A DNA stretch of 64,000 bases from Parabacteroides sp. (lineage in GTDB: Bacteria; Bacteroidota; Bacteroidia; Bacteroidales; Tannerellaceae): positions 45,803 to 109,802 of the forward strand of contig JAGBDR010000016.1 in assembly GCA_017937385.1 (NCBI GenBank), written 5' to 3'. The translations under genes and the position numbers were made by a program. Each line of letters starts with the position of its first letter. The stretch's first letter is position 1. Shown here in pieces: positions 1,955-34,720 of this stretch. Below the pieces are notes generated by a model. The model was not told the origin of the DNA. It searched no databases and worked only from the letters and a program-made list of their open reading frames with translations.

Positions 1955-2267
1955 ACATGATTTATTATTCGTTACTACTATTAGATTTCAGGTCACATAT
2001 ACGTTTCCGTCTTATCCGAGAGCAAACATACAGGAAGTGCTTTTAACAGACAAGAAAGTTCTATTATGTTAAAATTATTTACAAAACCTTTGTGTTAAAA
2101 TCGGAAAAAGAAAAGTTAAAATCGAGTAGCTGATTATTGAATGACAAATGTTTATATGGAAACAAGAAAAAAAGGCATAAAAAAATTCCATGCCCATGCG
2201 TTTTTGATTGCATGGGCATGGAATGGGAAAGGGATGGGCATGGAATGAAAAACCGTATTTCGAATAC
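1955..2267. other. AT-rich intergenic stretch with a phased box array
   Basis: About 310 bp without a convincing gene. It is AT-rich (2030-2180) and holds the ATGCCCAT/ATGGGCAT array at 2187-2247. The small plus-strand frame at 2208-2417 overlaps this array and the end of the gene below and is not supported. Confidence 0.6.
2187..2247. repeat. Phased 22-bp array of ATGCCCAT/ATGGGCAT boxes (locus 1)
   Basis: The 8-mer ATGCCCAT occurs at 2190-2197. Its reverse complement ATGGGCAT occurs at 2212-2219 and 2234-2241, so the step is exactly 22 bp. Flanking bases are also similar (TTCC before, GGAA after). The first two boxes can form a hairpin around a T-rich loop. It lies just beyond the 3' end of the minus-strand gene 2268-2729. 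Confidence 0.8.
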
Positions 2268-2729
2268 CTAAAACCGTATGGAAAAGTTTACGGCAGGTGT
2301 ATAAACGGTATTTCCCGTATAAGAGGGTGTATAAATAGGCGTCAATCCTATATCGACCTTATTCATTGCTTTCTTTTTATAGCGATGCGATACGATGAAA
2401 AGAGGTATACTCGATAGTGTCAAGGTTCCTCCTGCTATTAATACTGCAACAAATGGATTTCCTTTTCCAATGCCGCCTGATTGATTATCTATTGCTAATC
2501 CAATCATACCATAAAACGTCGTTGGCAAGCCAACTCCTAAAGCACTCCAACCGGCAATACGGAGGATTTTAGACGTTTTCCATTCCTTTGTTTGTTTATA
2601 CAAATCTTGCGTTACTAAAGACGATGATCCATCATTTACAACAACCCATGATTCATGAACGGCCTCATCCCGCGCATAAAGCGGATGTGACAGGAACAGG
2701 AAAATTAGAAGAAATGTTATGTAACGCAT
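2268..2729 (-). CDS. Exported hypothetical membrane protein
   Basis: I chose the ATG at 2727-2729 because the protein then begins with a signal peptide (MRYITFLLIFLFLSHPLYA, cut near residue 19); the longer frame adds 25 residues of unlikely sequence. The 153-residue product has two hydrophobic segments at about residues 57-80 and 93-113, each glycine-rich, and ends in aromatic-flanked alternating residues with a terminal Phe, like the last strand of an outer-membrane protein. I do not recognise a named family. The G+C content is clearly lower than that of the neighbouring kinase and helicase, and it sits inside the 1.25 kb that separates the two copies of the kinase 5' end, so it may have arrived with the rearrangement. 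Confidence 0.6.
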   Translation of the reverse strand: MRYITFLLIFLFLSHPLYARDEAVHESWVVVNDGSSSLVTQDLYKQTKEWKTSKILRIAGWSALGVGLPTTFYGMIGLAIDNQSGGIGKGNPFVAVLIAGGTLTLSSIPLFIVSHRYKKKAMNKVDIGLTPIYTPSYTGNTVYTPAVNFSIRF

Positions 2730-3140
2730 ACGATTTATAATTAGATATTTGCATTCACCCTTAAAGATGAATGCAAATATAATGAATATCTCAAAATCAA
2801 GCAATTATTTAGAACATTTTACAATAGCTTGATAATTGTGTGTCAATGCATTTCATAACGAAAAATTTTTATGATTAATGACTAAAAGTTTTTATTTGAT
2901 ATTATAACATGGCTTCATTACAGCTTGTTGGTTAATATAATGCAAAATAATCCATTTTTTCTTGATACTTTTTCATGGAATTATTTTAACTATTAAATGA
3001 ATTGATAGAAGGAAAATTTAACTGATATTCCAGAACAAAATATCAAATTGGAAATAGGGTACGAAAAAATATTACCTCCCTCGTTGTGTCAATATCATTA
3101 AAATAGATACTTTTGTGCTTTGTTAAATTCATAAACGATA
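2730..3140. other. AT-rich intergenic region
   Basis: About 410 bp, very AT-rich, with no open frame of interest. Its last ~60 bp are the kinase promoter and leader that are also present at 1640-1700. I see nothing else I can name. Confidence 0.6.
3108..3115 (+). promoter_or_regulatory. -7 promoter box for the PfkB kinase
   Basis: TACTTTTG, 25 bases before the start codon at 3141. The same box is present in the truncated copy at 1668-1675. Confidence 0.55.
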
Positions 3141-4070
3141 ATGAGAAAAGTAATCGGCATCGGGGAGACCATTCTCGACATCATTTTCAAGAACAACCAG
3201 CCCCATACGGCGCTGCCGGGCGGGTCGACTTTCAACGGCCTTGTCTCTTTAGGGCGGTTAGGCATTCCTGTTTCGTTTATCAGTGAAACAGGTAATGATC
3301 ATGTCGGAGACATCATCTGCGACTTCATGACCGAGAACCAGCTTTCCACCCGCTATGTGGACCGTTTCCCGAACGGGAAAAGCCCGGTTTCGCTCGCTTT
3401 CTTAGACGCAGACAACAATGCCCATTACACGTTCTACAAGGATTATCCGAAGCAACGCCTCGACGTGCCCCTGCCGGAAATCGACGAAGACGATATCTTC
3501 ATCTATGGTTCCTACTACTCGTTGGCTCCAGAGCTGAGGGAACGGGTGGTGGAGTTTCTCGATTATGCACGCCAGCGCAAGGCGATCCTCTATTACGACC
3601 CGAATTTCCGCAAGGCGCATGCCCACGAGGCGATCTATCTCACCCCGACACTGCTCGAGAACTTCGAATATGCCGATATCATACGCGGTTCGGACGAAGA
3701 CTTCCTCAATATTTTCGGGAAATCCGACAGCGGAAAGGTCTATTCGGACCATATCCGTTTCTACTGCGACCGCTTCATCACCACCCACGGGGCCGGCGGC
3801 GTAGACCTCTACCACGGCAACCAACGCTGTCATTTCGACGTGCCCGCCATTCGCGCGGCCAGCACGATCGGGGCGGGCGACAACTTCAATGCCGGCATCG
3901 TCTACGGCCTGTTGAAATATGACATCCGCCACCGCGACCTCGCCACCCTCCCGCAGGAAACATGGGCGAAGATCATCGGCTGCGGGATCGACCTGGCTAC
4001 CGAGGTTTGCCGCAGCTACGACAATTATATTTCAAAAGAATTTGCAACGGACTATCGGGCCCGGTTTTAA
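3141..4070 (+). CDS. PfkB-family carbohydrate kinase (fructokinase-like)
   Basis: The 309-residue protein has the PfkB fold signatures: the N-terminal substrate motif LPGGSTFNGLVSLGRLG (residues 25-41), and the C-terminal ATP/anion-hole motif GAGDNFNAG at residues 244-252, where Asp247 is the expected catalytic base. The family phosphorylates sugars or ribonucleosides with ATP in the cytoplasm; Bacteroidales members of this length are usually annotated as fructokinase-like. The substrate cannot be fixed from sequence. It has its own promoter box at 3108 and is followed 46 bp later by a phosphatase lipoprotein gene with a separate promoter box. Its promoter and first 42 codons are duplicated 1.44 kb upstream. 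Confidence 0.85.
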   Translation: MRKVIGIGETILDIIFKNNQPHTALPGGSTFNGLVSLGRLGIPVSFISETGNDHVGDIICDFMTENQLSTRYVDRFPNGKSPVSLAFLDADNNAHYTFYKDYPKQRLDVPLPEIDEDDIFIYGSYYSLAPELRERVVEFLDYARQRKAILYYDPNFRKAHAHEAIYLTPTLLENFEYADIIRGSDEDFLNIFGKSDSGKVYSDHIRFYCDRFITTHGAGGVDLYHGNQRCHFDVPAIRAASTIGAGDNFNAGIVYGLLKYDIRHRDLATLPQETWAKIIGCGIDLATEVCRSYDNYISKEFATDYRARF

Positions 4071-8702: not shown

Positions 8703-10313
8703 ATGAATAGATTTTTTATCCTAACAATCACGCTGATCGGTTACGGTTGTAACCTTGGGGCTCAGGAAATCGAATATTCCCGGCCGGTCAACACGCCCGA
8801 AAGCTGCACAAGCATCATGGTCGGCAAAAAAGCCTCGGCTGACGGCTCGGTGCTGACCAGTCATACTTGCGACGGAAACTACCGTACCTGGATGGATATT
8901 GTCCCGGCTGCCCATTACGAGCGCGACACGACGGTCGCTATCTATGACGGCCGTATGCACACTGAATATCCGGCCGACCGCACGAACATGGAACTGAAAG
9001 GGACGATACCGGAGGCCCGTTCGACTTACCAGTTCCTGAACACCGCCTATCCTTGTCTCAACGAGAAACAGTTGGGGATCGGCGAGACCACCATCTCCGG
9101 ACGCAAGGAGTTGCAGAACACGAAAGGAATGTTCCGGATCGAGGAACTGGAAAAGATCGCTTTGCAACGTTGCACGACGGCACGCGAGGCGATCCAGTTG
9201 ATCGGCCGGTTGGTCGCCGAATACGGATACGGGGATTCGGGCGAATGCCTGACGATCGCCGATCCGAACGAAGTCTGGCATTTCGAGGTGTTTGGGGAAG
9301 GGCCGGACAAGATCGGAGGCGTATGGGCGGCCGTTCGCATCCCGGATGACCATGTGGGCGTATCGGCCAACATCCCGCGTATCTCGACAATCGACCCGAA
9401 AGACAAGGAGCATTATATGGTTTCGGAAAACGTATTTTCGGTTGCCAAGAAGCTGGGTTTCTGGGACGGCAAAGAGCCGTTCAAGTTCTGGAAAGCCTAT
9501 AGCGGAGGGAACTATTTCGGCGAACCGAAGGCGTTCAGCATCCGCGAATATTTTATCCTGAATGCATTGGCACCCTCGCTCAACCTGTCGTACGACGCGG
9601 AAGAACTGCCGATCAGCGTCAAACCCGACAAAGCGGTTTCCGTAACGGATGTGATGGCATTGCTTCGCCAGACGTATGAGGGAACGGAATGGGACGTAAC
9701 GAAGAACCTGAAGATAGCGGTTAAGAACCGGGAAACCCAGGAAACAGATACGATCACGAGCCCGGCGGCTAATCCTTGGATGGGAACGGATATGGTGAAT
9801 ATGTTGAACGGTGTGAAGGAAGGGACGGTGACTCGCAACCGTTTGGTGGCGGTTCCGCAATGTTCTTATTCACACGTGATACAGCTTCGCAGCTGGCTGC
9901 CTGATGCCGTGGGTGGTGTCGCTTGGTTGTCGTTCGACAATCCGGGACAGAGCCCGCGTATCCCGATCTTTGCCGGTACGACCGACCTGCCGGCCGCTTT
10001 CGGTATTTGCGGACAGCACCGCCACCGGGAGGATGGAATCGTATGGAAATACCGGACGGCAAACAAGCTGGCGACGGTGCGCTGGGGAGTGACCCGAGAC
10101 AAGGTCAACGGTGCAGTCGCCCATTTCGAGGAAAAAGGACTGTCGGAAATGCCTTTCGTAGAAAGCCGCTACAAAGAGTTGCAAAACAGCAAGGGAGAAG
10201 AGGCGGCACGTGCCTTCTTGACCGGTTACACGGCCGATTTCGCTGGCGCGACCATCCAGCGCTGGCAAGAGATGGCAGACGAGTTCTGGAAGATGTTCGC
10301 AAGAGGATTTTGA
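8703..10313 (+). CDS. Exported C69-family dipeptidase (PepD/U34 type)
   Basis: A signal peptide (about residues 1-20) precedes PESCTSIMVGKKASADGSVL, the start of the mature N-terminal nucleophile domain; Cys35 is the predicted catalytic residue, exposed by removal of the leader as in other C69 enzymes. TSHTCDGNYRTWMD is also characteristic. The length of 536 residues is normal for the family, which cleaves dipeptides, here in the periplasm or cell envelope. The gene is followed closely by a C1-type exopeptidase, so the two probably act together on peptide scavenging. A weak TATCTTTA at 8669 could be its -7 box. Confidence 0.88.
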   Translation: MNRFFILTITLIGYGCNLGAQEIEYSRPVNTPESCTSIMVGKKASADGSVLTSHTCDGNYRTWMDIVPAAHYERDTTVAIYDGRMHTEYPADRTNMELKGTIPEARSTYQFLNTAYPCLNEKQLGIGETTISGRKELQNTKGMFRIEELEKIALQRCTTAREAIQLIGRLVAEYGYGDSGECLTIADPNEVWHFEVFGEGPDKIGGVWAAVRIPDDHVGVSANIPRISTIDPKDKEHYMVSENVFSVAKKLGFWDGKEPFKFWKAYSGGNYFGEPKAFSIREYFILNALAPSLNLSYDAEELPISVKPDKAVSVTDVMALLRQTYEGTEWDVTKNLKIAVKNRETQETDTITSPAANPWMGTDMVNMLNGVKEGTVTRNRLVAVPQCSYSHVIQLRSWLPDAVGGVAWLSFDNPGQSPRIPIFAGTTDLPAAFGICGQHRHREDGIVWKYRTANKLATVRWGVTRDKVNGAVAHFEEKGLSEMPFVESRYKELQNSKGEEAARAFLTGYTADFAGATIQRWQEMADEFWKMFARGF

Positions 10314-10314
10314 G

Positions 10315-10349
10315 CAATTGACAATTGACAATTGAGAATTGACAATTAA
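10315..10349 (+). repeat. Heptanucleotide tandem repeat, five units of CAATTGA
   Basis: Five consecutive 7-bp units (CAATTGA three times, then GAATTGA, CAATTAA) begin just after the C69 peptidase stop codon. Each unit contains AATT, giving partial dyad symmetry. Confidence 0.9.
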
Positions 10350-10354
10350 TTCAT

Positions 10355-10396
10355 AAATCAAAAATCAAAAATCATAAATCATAAATCATAATTCAT
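10355..10396 (+). repeat. Heptanucleotide tandem repeat, six units of AAATCAT, running into a start codon
   Basis: Six 7-bp units (AAATCAA twice, AAATCAT three times, AATTCAT once). The last unit supplies the first two bases of the ATG at 10395 of the next gene, so unit gain or loss would change the leader directly before translation starts. Confidence 0.9.
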
Positions 10397-11567
10397 GAAA
10401 CCAATCGTTTTATCTTGTATGTTGGCTTGCGCGGTTTCGGCTGCGTTTGGCCAAGGGTACCAATTTACGGAGGTGGTAACGGTTCCCGCGACTCCGGTCA
10501 AAAACCAGGCGGCAACAGGCACTTGCTGGTGCTTTGCCACGACTTCGTTTATGGAATCCGAACTGCTTCGCATGGGCAAAGGCACGTATGACCTGTCGGA
10601 GATGTTCATCGTCCGCCAAAAGTATATGAACCAGTTACAGGACAACTACCTGCGCCGGGGCAACGGCAACATCGGGCAAGGGAGCCTTTCGCATACCTTT
10701 ATGAATGCATACCGACAAGTGGGGATTGTCCCGGAAGAGGTGTATTCAGGAATCAACTACGGTTCCGAACGGCATAATCATAGCGAGATGGTCCGTTATA
10801 TGCACGCCCTTGCGGATGTGGCGGTGAAATCAAAAAACCGTAGCCCGGAATATGACAAACTGATCGACAACCTGTTCGACACCTATTTGGGGAAATTGCC
10901 GGAAAAATTCACCTACAAAGGAAAAGAGTATACACCGAAGTCATTCGCCGAATCATTGGGGTTGGATATGGATGACTATATCGAACTGACCAGTTTCACG
11001 CATCATCCGTATTATGTGAAGTTCGATGTGGAAGTACCCGACAACTGGGAGCATTCCCTCATGTACAACCTGCCGCTTGATGAAATGATGGAGACGGTAG
11101 ATTATGCTTTGAATAACGGCTATACGGTATGCTGGGACGGTGACGTGAGCGAAAAGGGATTCTCTTTTACCAACGGTGTCGCCATCAATCCGGAAGTGAA
11201 GAAGGTGGAAGACTTGTCAGACACGGACCGTGCCCGTTTCGAGAAATTAGGTGAAAAGGAACGTTTGGAAGAGGTGTTCAAGTTCGAACGTCCTTACCCG
11301 GAAATCAACGTGACTCCGGAAGTGCGTCAGGCAGGTTTCGAATCGTTCGTGACGACCGATGACCATCTGATGCACGTGACCGGCATCACGAAAGACCAGA
11401 ACGGCACGAAATATTACATCACCAAGAACTCATGGGGCACCGACCGCAACAAATTCGGCGGTTACCTGAACATGTCGGAGAGCTTCGTCCGCGCCAAAAC
11501 CATCTATGTGATGGTTCATAAGAATGCGATCCCGAAAGCGATCAAGACAAAGTTAGGAATCAAATAA
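10395..11567 (+). CDS. Exported C1-family peptidase (bleomycin hydrolase/aminopeptidase C type)
   Basis: A signal peptide of about 19 residues (ending AAFGQ) precedes a papain-fold domain. Catalytic Cys44 lies in ATGTCWCFAT, His324 in DDHLMHVTG and Asn345 in TKNSWGTD, in the order and spacing of the bleomycin hydrolase/PepC group. At 390 residues it is shorter than cytoplasmic PepC and, unlike it, exported. Expected activity is aminopeptidase or peptide trimming in the periplasm, matching the C69 dipeptidase upstream (81 bp gap, same strand). The gap is made almost wholly of two heptanucleotide repeats, so an independent promoter is not evident and the pair is probably co-transcribed. Confidence 0.88.
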   Translation: MKPIVLSCMLACAVSAAFGQGYQFTEVVTVPATPVKNQAATGTCWCFATTSFMESELLRMGKGTYDLSEMFIVRQKYMNQLQDNYLRRGNGNIGQGSLSHTFMNAYRQVGIVPEEVYSGINYGSERHNHSEMVRYMHALADVAVKSKNRSPEYDKLIDNLFDTYLGKLPEKFTYKGKEYTPKSFAESLGLDMDDYIELTSFTHHPYYVKFDVEVPDNWEHSLMYNLPLDEMMETVDYALNNGYTVCWDGDVSEKGFSFTNGVAINPEVKKVEDLSDTDRARFEKLGEKERLEEVFKFERPYPEINVTPEVRQAGFESFVTTDDHLMHVTGITKDQNGTKYYITKNSWGTDRNKFGGYLNMSESFVRAKTIYVMVHKNAIPKAIKTKLGIK

Positions 11568-24125: not shown

Positions 24126-25745
24126 ATGAAAAAAATCTTTGTCTATTTCAGCCTCCTTCTTTTCATGCAGGCAGCCTTTGCCGCCGACAGTTTGTTTGTC
24201 AAAAAGCCGCAGATCCCGATACTGATTGACCGGACCGACAACATCTTGATCGAGATGCGCGTACAAGCCCACAAAGGGGACGTGCTCAACACGCTCGCCC
24301 TGCAATTCGGTGAGGGAGACGAAGTGAACAACATAAAAGCCTTGCGCCTGTATTATAGCGGAACGGAAGCGACCTCCCGCCAGGGAAAACACTTCGCGCC
24401 GGTTTCCTACATCTCCAGCCATGCCATTGGCAAGACAAGGGCCGCCAACCCCTCCTATTCGGTCAAGCAAAGCGAAGTGACCGACATCACGCCGGCCGTG
24501 ACCCTCACCAGCCACCAGCCGATGCTGGAAGGCATCAACTACTATTGGGTCAGCATTGAAATGAAACCGGGAACTTCCCTGTTGAGCACCCTCTCCGTAC
24601 AGATGCCGAAGGCCGAGATCAACAACCGGGCCGCCCTCATCGTGGAAGAGGGCAAGACCGATGTTCGCCGCATGGGAATCGGTGTCCGCCAAGCCGGTGA
24701 CGACGGGGTAGCCGCTTTCCGCATTCCGGGACTGGTGACAACCAACAACGGGACGCTGTTAGGCGTGTACGATATCCGTTATAACAGTAGTGTGGACCTG
24801 CAAGAGAAGGTCGATATCGGAGTCAGCCGCAGCACCGACAAAGGACAGACCTGGGAGCCGATGCGCGTAGCCATGACATTCGGCGAGACAGGCGGCCTGC
24901 CTCATTCGCAAAATGGTGTGGGCGACCCGTCTATCTTGGTGGATGAAAAGACAAATACGATCTGGGTGGTTGCCGCCTGGACACACGGCATGGGGAACGG
25001 ACGTGCCTGGTGGAATTCCATGCCCGGCATGGAACCGGACAACACGGCACAGCTGATGCTGGTCAAGAGCGAAGACGACGGCAAGACCTGGAGCCAGCCG
25101 ATCAATATCACCTCGCAGGTGAAAGATCCTTCGTGGTACTTCCTCCTCCAGGGACCGGGACGGGGGATCACGATGAAAGACGGGACGCTGGTTTTCCCGA
25201 TCCAGTTCATCGACTCCACTCGCGTGCCGAACGCCGGCATCATGTACAGCAAGGACCGGGGCACTACGTGGCATCGGCATAACCTCGCACGCACGAACAC
25301 GACTGAAGCACAGGTCGCCGAAGTCGAACCGGGCGTCCTGATGTTGAACATGCGCGACAACCGAGGAGGAAGCCGTGCCGTCGCCACTACCCGCGACTTA
25401 GGCAAGACCTGGCAGGAACATCCGTCCAGCCGCAGTGCTCTGCCGGAACCGATCTGCATGGCGAGCCTCATCCATGTGAATGCCCAGGACAATATCACGG
25501 GAAAAGACCTGTTGATCTTCTCCAACCCGAACTCGACGAAAGGGCGCAACCATATCACCATCAAGGTGAGCACGGACGGAGGCATGACTTGGCCGCTCTC
25601 CAACCAGCTCATGCTGGACGAAGATGAAGGTTGGGGCTATTCCTGTCTCTCCATGATCGACAAGGAGACGGTCGGTATCTTCTACGAGTCGAGCGTCGCC
25701 CACATGACTTTCCAGGCTGTCAAACTGACCGACTTGGTCCGATAG
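24126..25745 (+). CDS. nanH: Exported sialidase (GH33) with N-terminal BNR-associated domain
   Basis: A signal peptide (residues 1-19) precedes an N-terminal beta domain (about 22-180) of the kind found before Bacteroidales sialidases, then the six-bladed propeller. FRIP is at residues 198-201 (first catalytic Arg), and Asp boxes of the S-x-D-x-G-x-T-W type follow (STDKGQTW at 236-243, SEDDGKTW, SKDRGTTW, TRDLGKTW, STDGGMTW). The Tyr nucleophile is probably in GWGYSC. The enzyme frees terminal sialic acid from host glycans outside the cytoplasm, feeding the transporter whose gene ends 18 bp upstream. 539 residues is normal for this architecture. Confidence 0.95.
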   Translation: MKKIFVYFSLLLFMQAAFAADSLFVKKPQIPILIDRTDNILIEMRVQAHKGDVLNTLALQFGEGDEVNNIKALRLYYSGTEATSRQGKHFAPVSYISSHAIGKTRAANPSYSVKQSEVTDITPAVTLTSHQPMLEGINYYWVSIEMKPGTSLLSTLSVQMPKAEINNRAALIVEEGKTDVRRMGIGVRQAGDDGVAAFRIPGLVTTNNGTLLGVYDIRYNSSVDLQEKVDIGVSRSTDKGQTWEPMRVAMTFGETGGLPHSQNGVGDPSILVDEKTNTIWVVAAWTHGMGNGRAWWNSMPGMEPDNTAQLMLVKSEDDGKTWSQPINITSQVKDPSWYFLLQGPGRGITMKDGTLVFPIQFIDSTRVPNAGIMYSKDRGTTWHRHNLARTNTTEAQVAEVEPGVLMLNMRDNRGGSRAVATTRDLGKTWQEHPSSRSALPEPICMASLIHVNAQDNITGKDLLIFSNPNSTKGRNHITIKVSTDGGMTWPLSNQLMLDEDEGWGYSCLSMIDKETVGIFYESSVAHMTFQAVKLTDLVR

Positions 25746-25759
25746 TTTCACAATGAAAT

Positions 25760-25816
25760 TCCATGCCCATGGAATTTCCGTTTCATGCCCAGAGAATCTG
25801 AATTGCATGGGCATGG
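25760..25816. repeat. Phased 22-bp array of ATGCCCAT-type boxes (locus 2)
   Basis: ATGCCCAT at 25763-25770, ATGCCCAG at 25785-25792 and ATGGGCAT at 25807-25814: three boxes at exact 22-bp steps, flanked by TTCC/GGAA as at the first locus. It fills much of the 138-bp gap between the sialidase and the esterase fusion gene. Confidence 0.8.
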
Positions 25817-30474: not shown

Positions 30475-30581
30475 ATGCTCGTTCATAATCCTCATCTTCG
30501 CGGGGAGTTGTTCTTCCCTTCGTGAAATTAGTTGTTGGAGTTTTTAATACACTATTTTATTAACAATTAATTTAAATGATT

Positions 30582-33500
30582 ATGAACAAGAAGTTTTCTA
30601 CGCTTTTGGCAGCGGGCTTGTTAGCGACAAGTTCGTTGTGTGGTAGTGCTTGGGCGCAAGTCACTATCAATGGGATCGATTTGAAGAAGGCTACAATTCC
30701 CGACGGTACGACCGTCAAGACATGGGCAAAAGGCCCTTATTTTGTGGTGGTTGATGCTGACAATAGTGGTGATGCAAGTGAAAATGACATCTTACTGAAA
30801 GTCACGTACAATGAAACCTCAAAGCAATTGGAATACGCAGGTCAAACATTGACAGCCAATGACAATAAGTTAGACTTGAGTACAATCTCTTGGTATCTGC
30901 ATGAAACCTCTAACACGGATCCGAACGATGGTAAAACTTATTACTACAAATTGCAGAATGTCGGCGAGGAAACATACCTGGCATTTGATGATGATGGGAA
31001 TCCTATTACCGACCCGGCCAAGAGTTCGCACGATAAGGACAAAAAACAATTTGCTATCTTCGCTACAGCGGATGATAGCTATGCAAATCAGTTTAGTAGT
31101 ACCAACAATACTTTGAATCTTTATCCCAAAGGATCTGCTGCTACTAACGCCGGTTTGACAATTGCCTCTACCGGTGTTACCCTTTCTGCTTCAGCCAGCG
31201 CACTCACCCTCTACACCCTCGATACTCAAGAACTGGCCGCTGATGAAGCTGCTGAAGCCATGAATGCCGAGATGGCTGGCGAAGGTTTCAGCTTCGATTT
31301 TGGAGTGGACAACAAGTATGCTTGGCAAAACGACAACCTGTCAGATGTAAAACTGAAAGCATTCTATGTTGATTCTAAAATCGATTTAGAGAATGGCATG
31401 GAAATTCCCGCTGGTGTTTATTTCGCTACCGACTATCCGGAAGAATTGGTCGGAACAAACGAGATTACCACTGGAGAGCTGTTCAAGCAGTGCACCTTCT
31501 TGGCTATCGACCCGATGGTCAACTACGACATCAACAAGGCTGACCGCGGAAATGGTGTAGGTTTCGAATTGGCAACCGTACAAGGTTCCGAAATGAACTT
31601 CTTTATGGGAAGCAACAAGAATGACAACTATTCTCATGCAGAAGAAATCTATGTAGGCAATGCTTGTTTCACAATTGAAGTGCCCGATGCCGTAACCGCA
31701 CCGGATGAATACAACATCAAGGCGAAAGACATCCACGTGTTCGTTTCAGCTAAAGACAATGCAGCTCAAAAACATGTGGCAAAGTCTAATCTTTATATTG
31801 GTTGTGTGACAGACCAGCTTAAGAACTACTTGGTTACGACAGATCTTAGTGGCGCTTTAGCTTTCACTACTACCAACTCAACACTGTTAGATGGCGATGA
31901 TCTGGTTGAATTCTTGCAGGAAGAAGACGCTCCTTCTGTCTATACGCTCCAGTTCGTAAGTGGACAGAAGAAGAAAGACGAAGCTTCTGAATACAAACAG
32001 TATCTGACTGTTTATAAGCCAAATACAAACTTTGCGTTAGCTTCCACTGTTGATTTCGACGAGGCAGACCCGATGTACCAGTTCGTGGTAACGGATATCA
32101 ACAAGACCAATAAGACCATCACATTGACAAACCGTCAGACAAAACATTCATTCACGGTTTCTCTGTATGAAAACAAGGAAGATGTTTATACCGTATTGCC
32201 GGCAGCTTCTACGGATGTGTATGTAGAATATGTTAATAGTGATGAAGAAGATGAAAGCGTAGAGTTTGCTAAATGCGAATTGACAAATATGCAGATCGTC
32301 CTGACTCCATACACTGTTGAAGACAAGTTCGCTACATTCGTGAACAGGGCCGACAACATGGGCTTGGTTCAGTTTGAATTAGCTGTAAACAATGATGCTG
32401 CAACTGCATTCTATGTAGGTGGTACAAGAGATAACGATGGTAAACTTGATGCAGGTGAAGAACTTTTGGGATATGTTGATAGCGAAAACATGACACAGTT
32501 CGAATTGATCAAGAGCGAAAAACCGTCATTGGTATTGAACAAGTACATCTATCTGGACGGCAAACGCATCAAGACTTCTACTGAAAGAGATACGGTCGCT
32601 TATTATAAGTATGCAATCCAGGCATTTGATGAAGAAATTGATGATCTCTATCTGAATGTTGCTTCTTCTACGTATAAATTAGAAACAAAGACAGCTAATT
32701 CAGCTCAGAAATTTATCATCAAGCAGAATCTGGACGGTTCAGTCGCTTTGATCAATGCAAATAATGTAGACGATGCTATGGGTGCTTTCGCTATGGTTGA
32801 TGAAAACCTGGTGAAAGATAAACAACCCGCATGGGTAGATGCCTACAACTACCAGCTTGAAAATAAGATCAACAAAGGCCTGAAGACCTTCATGGTTGAT
32901 GAAACTCCGGCTGTCAGCTACGAAGCTGTTCCGCAGCACGTATCTTTCGGATTGGTTCGCGGTGGTTTCTTGACAAACAAGGACAACGATGCATTCCAGA
33001 GCATCGCCACGGAAGCAAGTGAAGATTTGACATTCTGGGTAGACACCGTTAAGTCTGATCAGAACATTCCTTCGTTCTACATCACGAAAGCCGGTCACTT
33101 CCTGTACAATGCTGAAGACTCTGTCACTTATTACGAGGCTCGTGGCAACTACCGCTTCAACTTGGAAAGCACGAAAGGTCAACCAGCTAAGCTGATCTTC
33201 AAGGCCGGTGAATTGGTTTCTTCCGATACATTGCGTACAGTTGTTGACGGCAAGTCTGTCTTGGTTGCTGAAAAGGACAATGCACCGAAGAAGATCAAAG
33301 GTGGTCTGAACAAGTTCCAGTTCCAGATCATCAAGGCTGAAGATGGTAGCGACGAATATGTAATCCGTCAAGGCCGTACCAATTACGTTCAAATGATCAA
33401 CAGCTACTTCTATTTGAGTGCAAACAAGAACACGGCTGTTCGTTTCACTATCGAAAAACAGTCTGCTCCGACAGCCAATGAAGGGGTAGCAGTATCCGAA

Positions 33501-33695
33501 GTAACCGTTATCGCTGGTGAAGGCCAGTTGACAATTGCTAACGCTGCCGGCAAGAAGGTAGTTGTAAGCAACATTCTCGGTCAGGTAGTAGCTAACACGG
33601 TTTTGACTTCCGACAACGCTGTAATCGTTGCTCCTCAGGGTGTAGTTGTTGTAGCCGTTGAAGGTGAAGAAGCTGTGAAGGCTATCGTAAAATAA
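30582..33695 (+). CDS. Large exported protein with C-terminal DUF6383-type domain
   Basis: A signal peptide (MNKKFSTLLAAGLLATSSL to about SAWAQ) leads a 1037-residue, acidic, Asn/Asp/Thr-rich protein with no catalytic motif that I recognise. The last ~75 residues (from EGVAVSEVTVIAGEGQLTIA, through VVVSNILGQVVA, to EEAVKAIVK) match the DUF6383 pattern of Bacteroidales and also resemble type IX secretion C-terminal domains in layout. It is probably a surface or secreted protein. Base composition is more AT-rich than the neighbours and codons look like those of a highly expressed gene. A second ATG two codons upstream (30576) is equally possible. The promoter may be the distant one at 30191 or an unseen nearer one. 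Confidence 0.75.
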   Translation: MNKKFSTLLAAGLLATSSLCGSAWAQVTINGIDLKKATIPDGTTVKTWAKGPYFVVVDADNSGDASENDILLKVTYNETSKQLEYAGQTLTANDNKLDLSTISWYLHETSNTDPNDGKTYYYKLQNVGEETYLAFDDDGNPITDPAKSSHDKDKKQFAIFATADDSYANQFSSTNNTLNLYPKGSAATNAGLTIASTGVTLSASASALTLYTLDTQELAADEAAEAMNAEMAGEGFSFDFGVDNKYAWQNDNLSDVKLKAFYVDSKIDLENGMEIPAGVYFATDYPEELVGTNEITTGELFKQCTFLAIDPMVNYDINKADRGNGVGFELATVQGSEMNFFMGSNKNDNYSHAEEIYVGNACFTIEVPDAVTAPDEYNIKAKDIHVFVSAKDNAAQKHVAKSNLYIGCVTDQLKNYLVTTDLSGALAFTTTNSTLLDGDDLVEFLQEEDAPSVYTLQFVSGQKKKDEASEYKQYLTVYKPNTNFALASTVDFDEADPMYQFVVTDINKTNKTITLTNRQTKHSFTVSLYENKEDVYTVLPAASTDVYVEYVNSDEEDESVEFAKCELTNMQIVLTPYTVEDKFATFVNRADNMGLVQFELAVNNDAATAFYVGGTRDNDGKLDAGEELLGYVDSENMTQFELIKSEKPSLVLNKYIYLDGKRIKTSTERDTVAYYKYAIQAFDEEIDDLYLNVASSTYKLETKTANSAQKFIIKQNLDGSVALINANNVDDAMGAFAMVDENLVKDKQPAWVDAYNYQLENKINKGLKTFMVDETPAVSYEAVPQHVSFGLVRGGFLTNKDNDAFQSIATEASEDLTFWVDTVKSDQNIPSFYITKAGHFLYNAEDSVTYYEARGNYRFNLESTKGQPAKLIFKAGELVSSDTLRTVVDGKSVLVAEKDNAPKKIKGGLNKFQFQIIKAEDGSDEYVIRQGRTNYVQMINSYFYLSANKNTAVRFTIEKQSAPTANEGVAVSEVTVIAGEGQLTIANAAGKKVVVSNILGQVVANTVLTSDNAVIVAPQGVVVVAVEGEEAVKAIVK

Positions 33696-33753: not shown

Positions 33754-33781
33754 GTAGAGACGCACTGCCGTGCGTCTCTAC
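33754..33781. repeat. Perfect GTAGAGACGCAC palindrome
   Basis: GTAGAGACGCAC, four-base loop TGCC, then GTGCGTCTCTAC: a perfect 12-bp stem. There is no T-run, so it looks like a dispersed palindromic repeat, although it could stop transcription from the gene that ends 58 bp upstream. Confidence 0.85.
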
Positions 33782-33911: not shown

Positions 33912-33944
33912 AAGCCCCGTAGGTAGAAAACTCCTGCGGGGCTT
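33912..33944 (+). terminator. Hairpin, possible terminator
   Basis: AAGCCCCGTAGG and CCTGCGGGGCTT form a strong stem around a nine-base loop, with the bases after it only modestly T-rich (CGTTGT). It may terminate the DUF6383 transcript. Confidence 0.5.
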
Positions 33945-33982: not shown

Positions 33983-34090
33983 TCAATGCCCATCGTGGAG
34001 TTGTTAGAATGCCCATCGTAAGGTTATTAGAATGCCCATTCCAAGGTGGTTAGAATGGGCATTGTAGCGACCTTACAATGGGCATCATGG
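33983..34090. repeat. Phased 23-bp array of ATGCCCAT/ATGGGCAT boxes (locus 3)
   Basis: Boxes start at 33986, 34009 and 34032 (ATGCCCAT) and at 34055 and 34078 (ATGGGCAT, the reverse complement). The step is exactly 23 bp four times. Units share TTAGA before the box but the spacer bases differ, so this is not a simple recent tandem duplication. Confidence 0.85.
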
Positions 34091-34132: not shown

Positions 34133-34720
34133 TCACACCAACGCCAATTTACGGGCCTCCGCATCCCAGCGCGGCTCCGAATAAACCAGGCTGACCACTT
34201 CGGCAGGGGTGGAGGCGACGGCCCAGAGGGCGGCGTGCTGCGGGCGCATGAAATGCTCGCTGACGGCACGGCGGAACATCTCCAACAGAGGGTCGAAATA
34301 GCCGTCCGTGTTCAGGATGATGATGGGGTTGAGATACAGGCCCAACTGTTTCCAGGTGATGACCTCCAGCAACTCTTCGAGTGTGCCGCACCCGCCGGGC
34401 AAGGCGATCGCGGCATCCGACAGGTCGGCCATCCGTTGTTTGCGTTCGTGCATGCTGCCGACTTCGACCAGCTCGGTCAATCCTTTGTGGCACCAATCCT
34501 GTTCCACCATGAAATGGGGGATCACGCCTGTGACCGTCCCGCCGGCTGCCAACACGGCGTCTGAGACGGCACACATCAGGCCTGTATTGCCGGCCCCGTT
34601 GACCACCCGCAACCCCCGCTCGCCCAACAGCCGTCCCAACTCGGCGGCCGCCTCCCGGTAGACGGGAGCGACTTGCGTGCTGGAGGCGCCATACACGCAG
34701 ACGGAAGCAATCTTATTCAT
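34133..34720 (-). CDS. LOG-family protein (cytokinin riboside phosphoribohydrolase-like)
   Basis: Starting at the ATG at 34718-34720, the 195-residue product shows the LOG/lysine-decarboxylase-like signature PGGCGTLEELLEVITWKQLG and the N-terminal Rossmann strand KIASVCVYGASS. Members hydrolyse nucleoside 5'-monophosphates with modified bases to the free base and ribose 5-phosphate; many bacterial members have an unknown physiological substrate. It is cytoplasmic. It lies 11 bp after the AlkD-like gene and is the last gene of that minus-strand cluster. The upstream extension to 35011 runs through the AlkD coding region in another frame and was rejected. Confidence 0.88.
   Translation of the reverse strand: MNKIASVCVYGASSTQVAPVYREAAAELGRLLGERGLRVVNGAGNTGLMCAVSDAVLAAGGTVTGVIPHFMVEQDWCHKGLTELVEVGSMHERKQRMADLSDAAIALPGGCGTLEELLEVITWKQLGLYLNPIIILNTDGYFDPLLEMFRRAVSEHFMRPQHAALWAVASTPAEVVSLVYSEPRWDAEARKLALV

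Follow-up and report, generated by a model that had tools for sequence, protein, structure and literature searches.

Phased palindromic box arrays behind genes in Parabacteroides, a probable gene-end element of a kind not described so far

The focal array and its surroundings

The window, i.e. the whole stretch of 64,000 nucleotides of Parabacteroides DNA that was analysed, contains an array of five ATG(CC/GG)CAT boxes between two convergent genes (Table 1). The boxes starting at 33986, 34009 and 34032 read ATGCCCAT and those at 34055 and 34078 read ATGGGCAT, which confirms the original prediction of five boxes at four exact steps of 23 bp, three of them in one direction and two in the other. 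Boxes two to five lie inside an inverted repeat, the 36-nt arms of which are 83% complementary and separated by 5 nt, and the array corresponds to the four boxes that are usual for its kind (see below) plus one extra unit. The stop of the gene encoding the LOG-type protein is 47 bases away, which places the array in the 3' region of this gene, while 290 bases lie between the array and the stop of the DUF6383-domain gene. Two further structures are separate from the array, namely a GTAG-type palindrome 3' of the DUF6383-domain gene and a GC-rich hairpin between that gene and the array, which is without a U tract and absent from our terminator scan.

In total, the window contains 12 occurrences of the word, compared to an expectation of 2.36 (sd 1.64; maximum of 7 in 100 shuffles), and 10 of these 12 boxes are contained in three arrays. 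The two other arrays, which had been reported at 2190 and 25763 with a step of 22 bp, are located as stated; the middle box of the latter is decayed to ATGCCCAG, and the former stands 26 bases 3' of the stop of a 153-aa open reading frame (ORF). Apart from the arrays, the window harbors heptamer repeats close to a gene end (TTGACAA and TAAATCA, 5-7 copies, 10310-10404), and repeats of 7 bp are the commonest period in the samples of G013 and G012, too. In addition, a nearly identical stretch of ~80-90 bp is present twice (about 1628-1720 and 3078-3160), both copies of which terminate with the beginning of one and the same gene (ATGAGAAAAGTAATCGGCAT...).

Table 1 Features of the window at and around the three box arrays.
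Feature	Position	Strand	Remarks
Five-box ATG(CC/GG)CAT array (focal array)	33986..34085	.	step exactly 23 (four times)
Inverted repeat within focal array	34009..34085	.	arms 34009-34044 and 34050-34085
LOG-type protein (Pfam Lysine_decarbox, LDcluster4)	34133..34720	-	convergent neighbour
1039-aa protein, DUF6383 C-terminal domain	30576..33695	+	convergent neighbour
GTAG-type palindrome, GTAGAGACGCAC/GTGCGTCTCTAC	33754..33781	.	12-nt perfect arms
GC-rich hairpin	33912..33944	.	12-nt arms, 92%
Three-box array, step 22	2190..2241	.	boxes 2190/2212/2234
153-aa ORF	2268-2729	-	no Pfam match; overlooked by gene caller
Three-box array, step 22	25763..25814	.	boxes 25763/25785/25807
BNR-repeat neuraminidase-type gene	24126-25745		stop 17 bases before array 25763..25814

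Genome-wide occurrence and exact pitch of the arrays

A genome-wide analysis of box spacing had been suggested as a check of the original prediction. In the genome of the window (G000), 49 box pairs were found at step 22 and 44 at step 23, and control patterns read backwards yielded no pair at either step. We counted 62 arrays, 37 with step 22 and 25 with step 23, none of which mixes the two steps. Within the 59 stretches fetched around these arrays (352 kb), on which the spacing counts are based, strict boxes are 22 (49 cases), 23 (44), 44 (13), 46 (26), 17 (1) or 40 bp (1) apart, and never 20, 21, 24 or 25 bp. If one arm mismatch is allowed, 82 pairs are found at 22, 74 at 23, 2 at 21, few elsewhere and again none at 20, 24 or 25. 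The pitch is also kept by decayed neighbours: in a test without bias toward the exact step, a degenerate next box was located exactly at the step at 54 of 124 array ends, once at +1, once at +2 and at none of these ends at -1 or -2. The centre dinucleotide is CC or GG in all 186 of the ATGNNCAT neighbours at ±22/23, in which count a box may appear twice.

The possibility considered beforehand, that a single strain alone has the arrays, does not apply, since a box pair is present in 29 of 123 genomes of the family (three or more pairs in 21) and, within the genus, in 19 of 38 genomes (three or more in 15). Elsewhere in the order, 10 of 388 genomes contain one or two pairs and 8 of 388 do so for the backwards control, from which we conclude that this signal represents background; within the sampled part of the order, the signal of the word is confined to the family. 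A scan of named genomes with the 23-bp pattern, which may leave out the records of the window's own genome, retrieved 10 stretches, nine from Parabacteroides and one from Nostocales. The pattern had no exact match in viral_contigs, and we therefore rejected a phage origin.

The step-23 arrays as copies of one element

With decayed boxes included, four boxes are present in 19 of the 25 step-23 arrays of G000, in 11 of 17 in G015 and in 11 of the 19 listed for G016, a member of the same genus as G000 and a close relative of G015. The 17 arrays of G015 comprise all of its 32 box pairs, and the arrays of G016, at least 19, cover 34 of 40 pairs. Among the step-22 arrays of G000, three boxes are found in 20 of 37.

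The step-23 consensus of G000, which was derived from 29 four-box windows in 24 arrays, all turned to one orientation, is TAAGA-ATGCCCAT-TNTAAGGTCNTTACA-ATGCCCAT-TCTAACAACCTNACA-ATGCCCAT-TCTAACNACCTTACG-ATGGGCAT-TGT, with an extended box palindrome of about TTACR-ATGSSCAT-YNTAA. In the consensus as read by eye, the flanks are not conserved beyond about 5-6 bp, and a target duplication was not noticed. The spacers at the same position of different arrays share an identity of 0.682 vs 0.605 when permuted (z 10.5), based on the 16 of 19 four-box arrays of G000 that were left once near-duplicates had been removed. This signal is weak in G015 (z 2.7, 11 arrays) and in step-22 arrays (z 2.3, 17 arrays), and there is none in 11 arrays among those listed for G016 (z 0.0). 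The difference between z 10.5 in G000 and 0.0 in G016 indicates that whole elements spread in the former, and that the units of the latter carry no memory of their position. From the usual number of four boxes and the position-specific spacers we conclude that all arrays of this step derive from a single palindromic element of ~100 bp, of which they represent copies, which the earlier reading had missed. Its statement that the spacers vary applies in so far as they vary more than the boxes; they are, however, not random, but follow position-specific consensuses in the 23-bp arrays.

Location of the arrays relative to genes

The 23-bp form, which usually consists of four palindromic boxes, is mostly located just behind stop codons, with convergent gene pairs favoured and divergent ones avoided. 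Among the 23 step-23 arrays of G000 with both neighbours called, 9 are located between convergent (p 0.003), 14 between tandem and none between divergent genes (p 0.016 by region count, 0.003 by length), whereby the background regions for these p values were taken from the same array-centred stretches. The corresponding numbers are 10, 7 and 0 in G015 (n=17) and, among the arrays listed, 8, 10 and 0 in G016 (n=18). For the step-22 arrays of G000 we obtained 8 convergent, 21 tandem and 5 divergent cases (n=34), the last of which include the window array at 2190 owing to the overlooked 153-aa gene. The step-23 arrays of G000 are flanked by 33 gene 3' ends at a median distance of 35 bp, 26 of them within 100 bp, and the median is 39 bp for step-22 arrays; flanking 5' ends are at a median of 179 bp (step 23) and 163 bp (step 22). 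Most arrays (56 of 62) lie outside called genes, and the 6 overlapping ones all have step 22. Overall, the step-22 arrays are less clearly 3'-bound than the step-23 arrays.

The genes beside the arrays are functionally mixed: the 27 proteins tested, whose 3' ends face step-23 arrays, matched 84 Pfam families, of which only PDDEXK_2 and AAA_22 were found in more than one protein. The location of the arrays fits the role at transcription ends that had been raised as a possibility, and a general nucleoid role is not indicated, since the arrays are tied to 3' ends.

Changes between close relatives

Copying or homogenisation has taken place among the 23-bp arrays throughout the genome, and their gains and losses comprise exact units. 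All copy-number changes observed from G015 to G016 are exact multiples of 23 bp, with the array in G016 being 46 bp shorter at L204 and L213, 23 bp shorter at L217 and 23 bp longer at L208. The loss or gain of one 23-bp unit at L217/L243 and L208/L224 is usable as a strain marker.

The idea that the spacers are as conserved as the boxes, which had been put forward as a point against the original prediction, is not borne out by the substitutions between G015 and G016. In 13 of 14 pairs (L211, with a coding identity of 0.775, was dropped), 3 of 360 box bases and 27 of 480 spacer bases differ, compared to 58/956 in the near flanks, 416/4102 in other intergenic and 2651/41969 in coding sequence; since most pairs were found via exact boxes on both sides, the conservation of the boxes is partly ascertained. 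In the five pairs found by their flanks only, the contrast is weaker, with 9/135 box vs 26/180 spacer changes (p 0.02), and L232 alone accounts for 7 of the 9 box changes.

Arrays of G015 and G016 without an ortholog in the first pass were compared separately. The array is present at L209, L217, L218, L236 and L232; at L235/L256 and L237/L259, the place of the G016 array is taken in G015 by another palindrome (TGTAGAGACG...); the array is absent at L231/L257, where the junction is not clean; L203, L205, L216, L226 and L228 gave no assignment and L240 had no listed match. We also noted, at L216, L256 and L259, palindromes (TGTAGAGACGGGGC...) like the one at 33754-33781 of the window, which in G015 are located at two loci with an array in G016, as if gene-end palindromes were interchangeable. 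The proteins beside the G000 arrays had no counterpart beside the fetched G015/G016 arrays (E 1e-15, 45% identity, 60% coverage).

Folding and transcription termination

The transcribed array could act at the RNA level by folding, on either strand, into one long or several hairpins, which would end transcription or protect the mRNA 3' ends of the two neighbours; this is the main rival of the protein model given below, and we regard it as possible but on the whole rather unlikely. It would agree with the strong predicted folding of the focal array on the two strands (-48.2 kcal/mol, z -5.0, and -49.3 kcal/mol, z -7.8), but these z-scores are not independent evidence, because any palindromic array folds well. 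The orientation of the boxes favours folding beyond random flips in G015 (z -3.2) and in the arrays listed for G016 (z -3.2), which are largely the same arrays; in G000, the effect is weak (z -1.6 for step 23, -0.5 for step 22). In the step-23 sets, the two arms of local hairpins showed no positive covariation, so that RNA pairing is not favoured as the constraint. The pairing between the left and the right half of an array exceeds that of permuted halves for step 22 (n 30, z 2.85, p 0.003), and it does so slightly in G015 (z 1.6) and in the listed arrays of G016 (z 1.2).

With respect to termination, no terminator-like site was detected between 33600 and 34250 of the window, and the focal array does not have the GC hairpin directly followed by a U tract that defines an intrinsic terminator. 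Overall, hairpin-plus-U structures are not depleted at array-bearing ends in the three genomes, which speaks against an array acting as RNA: such a structure is present at 19/53 ends with and 22/91 without an array in G000, at 5/21 vs 3/14 in G015 and at 6/24 vs 1/11 in G016, whereby the tandem controls include operon junctions. At convergent ends of G000, hairpin-plus-U is rarer with an array (9/27 vs 7/10, p 0.05, with as few as 10 controls), which speaks for an RNA role. The hairpin followed by a T run that is visible by eye 3' of the orthologous LOG gene in three other species (L112, L114, L125) points in the same direction, as does the other palindrome that G015 has in place of the array at L235/L256 and L237/L259. 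Hairpins, however, need no exact pitch.

Mobility and slippage

Another explanation is a selfish, non-autonomous, MITE-like mobile element without host function, for which the 3' location would represent the insertion site of least harm. This would be consistent with the position-specific consensus across G000 loci, with the array-flanking proteins of G000 that are unmatched beside the fetched arrays of G015 and G016, and with the patchy presence in the genus. We nevertheless consider it unlikely, since neither a flank conserved beyond about 5-6 bp nor a target duplication was noticed by eye, no clean empty site was found, including the junction at L231/L257, and copies that have diverged still show the exact pitch, which implies constraint. 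Moreover, the one transposase family tested (PF01797, RAYT-type Y1 transposase) is absent from G000, which is 90.5% complete, from the single-contig genome G015 and from G016; it was found in 5 of the 16 genomes searched, G059 and G097 among them, and in 5 of 14 controls, one of which is E. coli. A plain minisatellite, i.e. a palindromic unit duplicated by slippage without any function, would explain the changes by exactly one or two units in G015/G016, but is very improbable in view of the same box at 62 loci, the modal four boxes of step-23 arrays, the position-specific spacers and the 3' bias.

A putative protein bound to the boxes

The analysis as a whole suggests a REP-like gene-end element, the rigid pitch of which points to adjacent dimers of a putative DNA-binding protein. 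Our best explanation, with a probability of roughly 45%, is that the arrays are dispersed non-coding palindromic 3'-end elements, whose boxes would be bound by such dimers and which would act at gene ends. Each extended box would bind one dimer and adjacent dimers would touch one another, so that substitutions in the spacers would be tolerated, but insertions or deletions of single bases would not. Acting on the ends of the genes on either side, the bound array would then constitute a transcriptional roadblock or boundary between these neighbours and perhaps also a boundary for supercoiling.

The strict pitch, the conserved boxes, the variable spacers and the absence of local covariation in step-23 arrays are best accounted for by dimers arranged side by side. 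The putative multimeric protein that had been considered possible is hence the best account of the strict pitch. The orientation of the boxes in G015 and G016, which favours folding, the covarying halves of the step-22 arrays and the unrelated units that coexist in G097 (see below) run counter to protein binding, and the less clear 3' location of the step-22 arrays is a further point against the overall reading. Taken together, the original prediction is partly supported, as word and step are preserved with more variable spacers, more than one strain has the arrays and their location is at gene ends.

Other words with similar geometry

In G059, 50 ATGSSCAT pairs are present. The backwards-control word TACSSGTA forms 73 pairs in G097, a family member of a different genus, and 1-4 pairs in five other genomes. 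Among the G097 units listed, all read TACCGGTA with a step of 22 and about 3.8-4 units, i.e. a related genus has a similar architecture with another word and the pitch kept, which was likewise missing from the earlier reading. G075 contains 2 and G078 6 pairs, mostly ATGCGCAT, which is weak evidence, since half of the G078 pairs are located in one near-identical tandem.

In samples that were not chosen for arrays, 22 is the foremost lag, heptamer lags aside, in G013 (5) and in G011 (3), and G012 has it once. Lags 21-23 passed neither in four genomes from other families nor in three samples of 15-17 kb from the family. The mean dyad score of units of 20-24 bp vs shuffled units is 0.74/0.53 in G097, 0.73/0.57 in G011, 0.63/0.56 in G012 and 0.62/0.50 in G008, and it is near the shuffled value in G013 (0.55/0.53) and G026 (0.55/0.58, one array); the stretches of G097 and G008 were picked for TACSSGTA arrays, and only their other repeat families are unselected. 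Because of the weak dyads in G013 and G026 and of one non-dyad period-22 array in the outgroup G040 (L188), a family-wide claim is only partly supported. G026, another Parabacteroides, also has intergenic arrays with a period of 41-42 bp (L183, 13167-13400; L184, 8364-8551), about twice a 21-bp pitch.

These observations could reflect a gene-end system of the whole clade: a geometry of ~four boxes at a pitch of 21-23 bp 3' of stop codons would be inherited, and the word would be replaced between species (ATGSSCAT, TACCGGTA and perhaps ATGCGCAT), because each genome would keep its own matching DNA-binding protein. We judge this to be doubtful; if true, a switch of words between species at unchanged geometry would teach something new about the co-evolution of short repeats and their proteins. 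In G097 (L168-L177), several unrelated units of 21-22 bp coexist, a number of them in ~four copies, e.g. TGTTGATAATTGTCAACAAATC and GAAAAACGCCGGCGGCCTTTT, which is not easily explained by the binding of a single protein.

Comparison with known repeat elements

In their behaviour the arrays are much like the GTAG- or CGTC-tagged REPs and the BIMEs, a likeness that the earlier reading had missed. The latter are short palindromes in many copies, mostly downstream of coding regions (PMC3733652), and like the arrays they lie between convergent or co-directional genes, often close together and in opposite orientation, and are foldable (PMC3733652). The palindrome of 20-40 bp, the high copy number and the extragenic location of REPs are all found here, with dyad units of 22-23 bp at 62 loci, 56 of them extragenic; the rigid 22/23-bp pitch and the arrangement in arrays of usually three or four boxes set the arrays apart. 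Membership in the RAYT-linked REPs/REPINs was rejected, because the ends of the step-23 consensus (TAAGA and TGT, by eye) are without a GTAG or CGTC tag and the Y1 transposase is absent from G000, G015 and G016. The claim that no described element has this layout stands in so far as our search of open-licence papers retrieved none describing the arrays, but their behaviour resembles that of REP/BIME-type repeats. Rfam (4227 families, gathering score) had no match in the four of 59 stretches scanned (L072, L050, L053, L022), which argues against a known RNA family there, and the spacers of 14-15 bp with a shared consensus do not fit a CRISPR array.

The BrickBuilt MITE of the Bacteroidales relative Porphyromonas gingivalis likewise consists of intergenic tandem units of 23 nt (AGAYCATARTATCCTCTCRTRTG); it has a leader and a tail with terminal inverted repeats, whereas here the whole array measures about 100 bp (PMC4596501). 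With up to 3 mismatches allowed, its unit was not found anywhere in the window, and we rejected identity on the basis of the unit sequence. The ERIC/RU sequences of enterobacteria are palindromic and, unlike the arrays, are not known to be made of phased boxes. Their small size of about 100-170 bp and intergenic location, as given for these mobile sequences in PMC2759123, are similar to those of the arrays.

The arrays thus seem to represent a gene-end element of a kind not described so far, with about sixty copies in G000. The genus Parabacteroides is common in the gut, but the ends of its transcripts have to our knowledge been little studied, and an exact-pitch element behind dozens of ordinary genes offers a testable handle on transcription ending and insulation in this genus. 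In eukaryotic rDNA, tandem terminator boxes behind the gene are bound by TTF-I and stop the polymerase. The arrays share with them the placement of several boxes behind a gene, a functional analogy only, and if the clade-wide word-switching is true, they would represent a bacterial counterpart of such protein-roadblock terminator boxes, with a fast-switching specificity.
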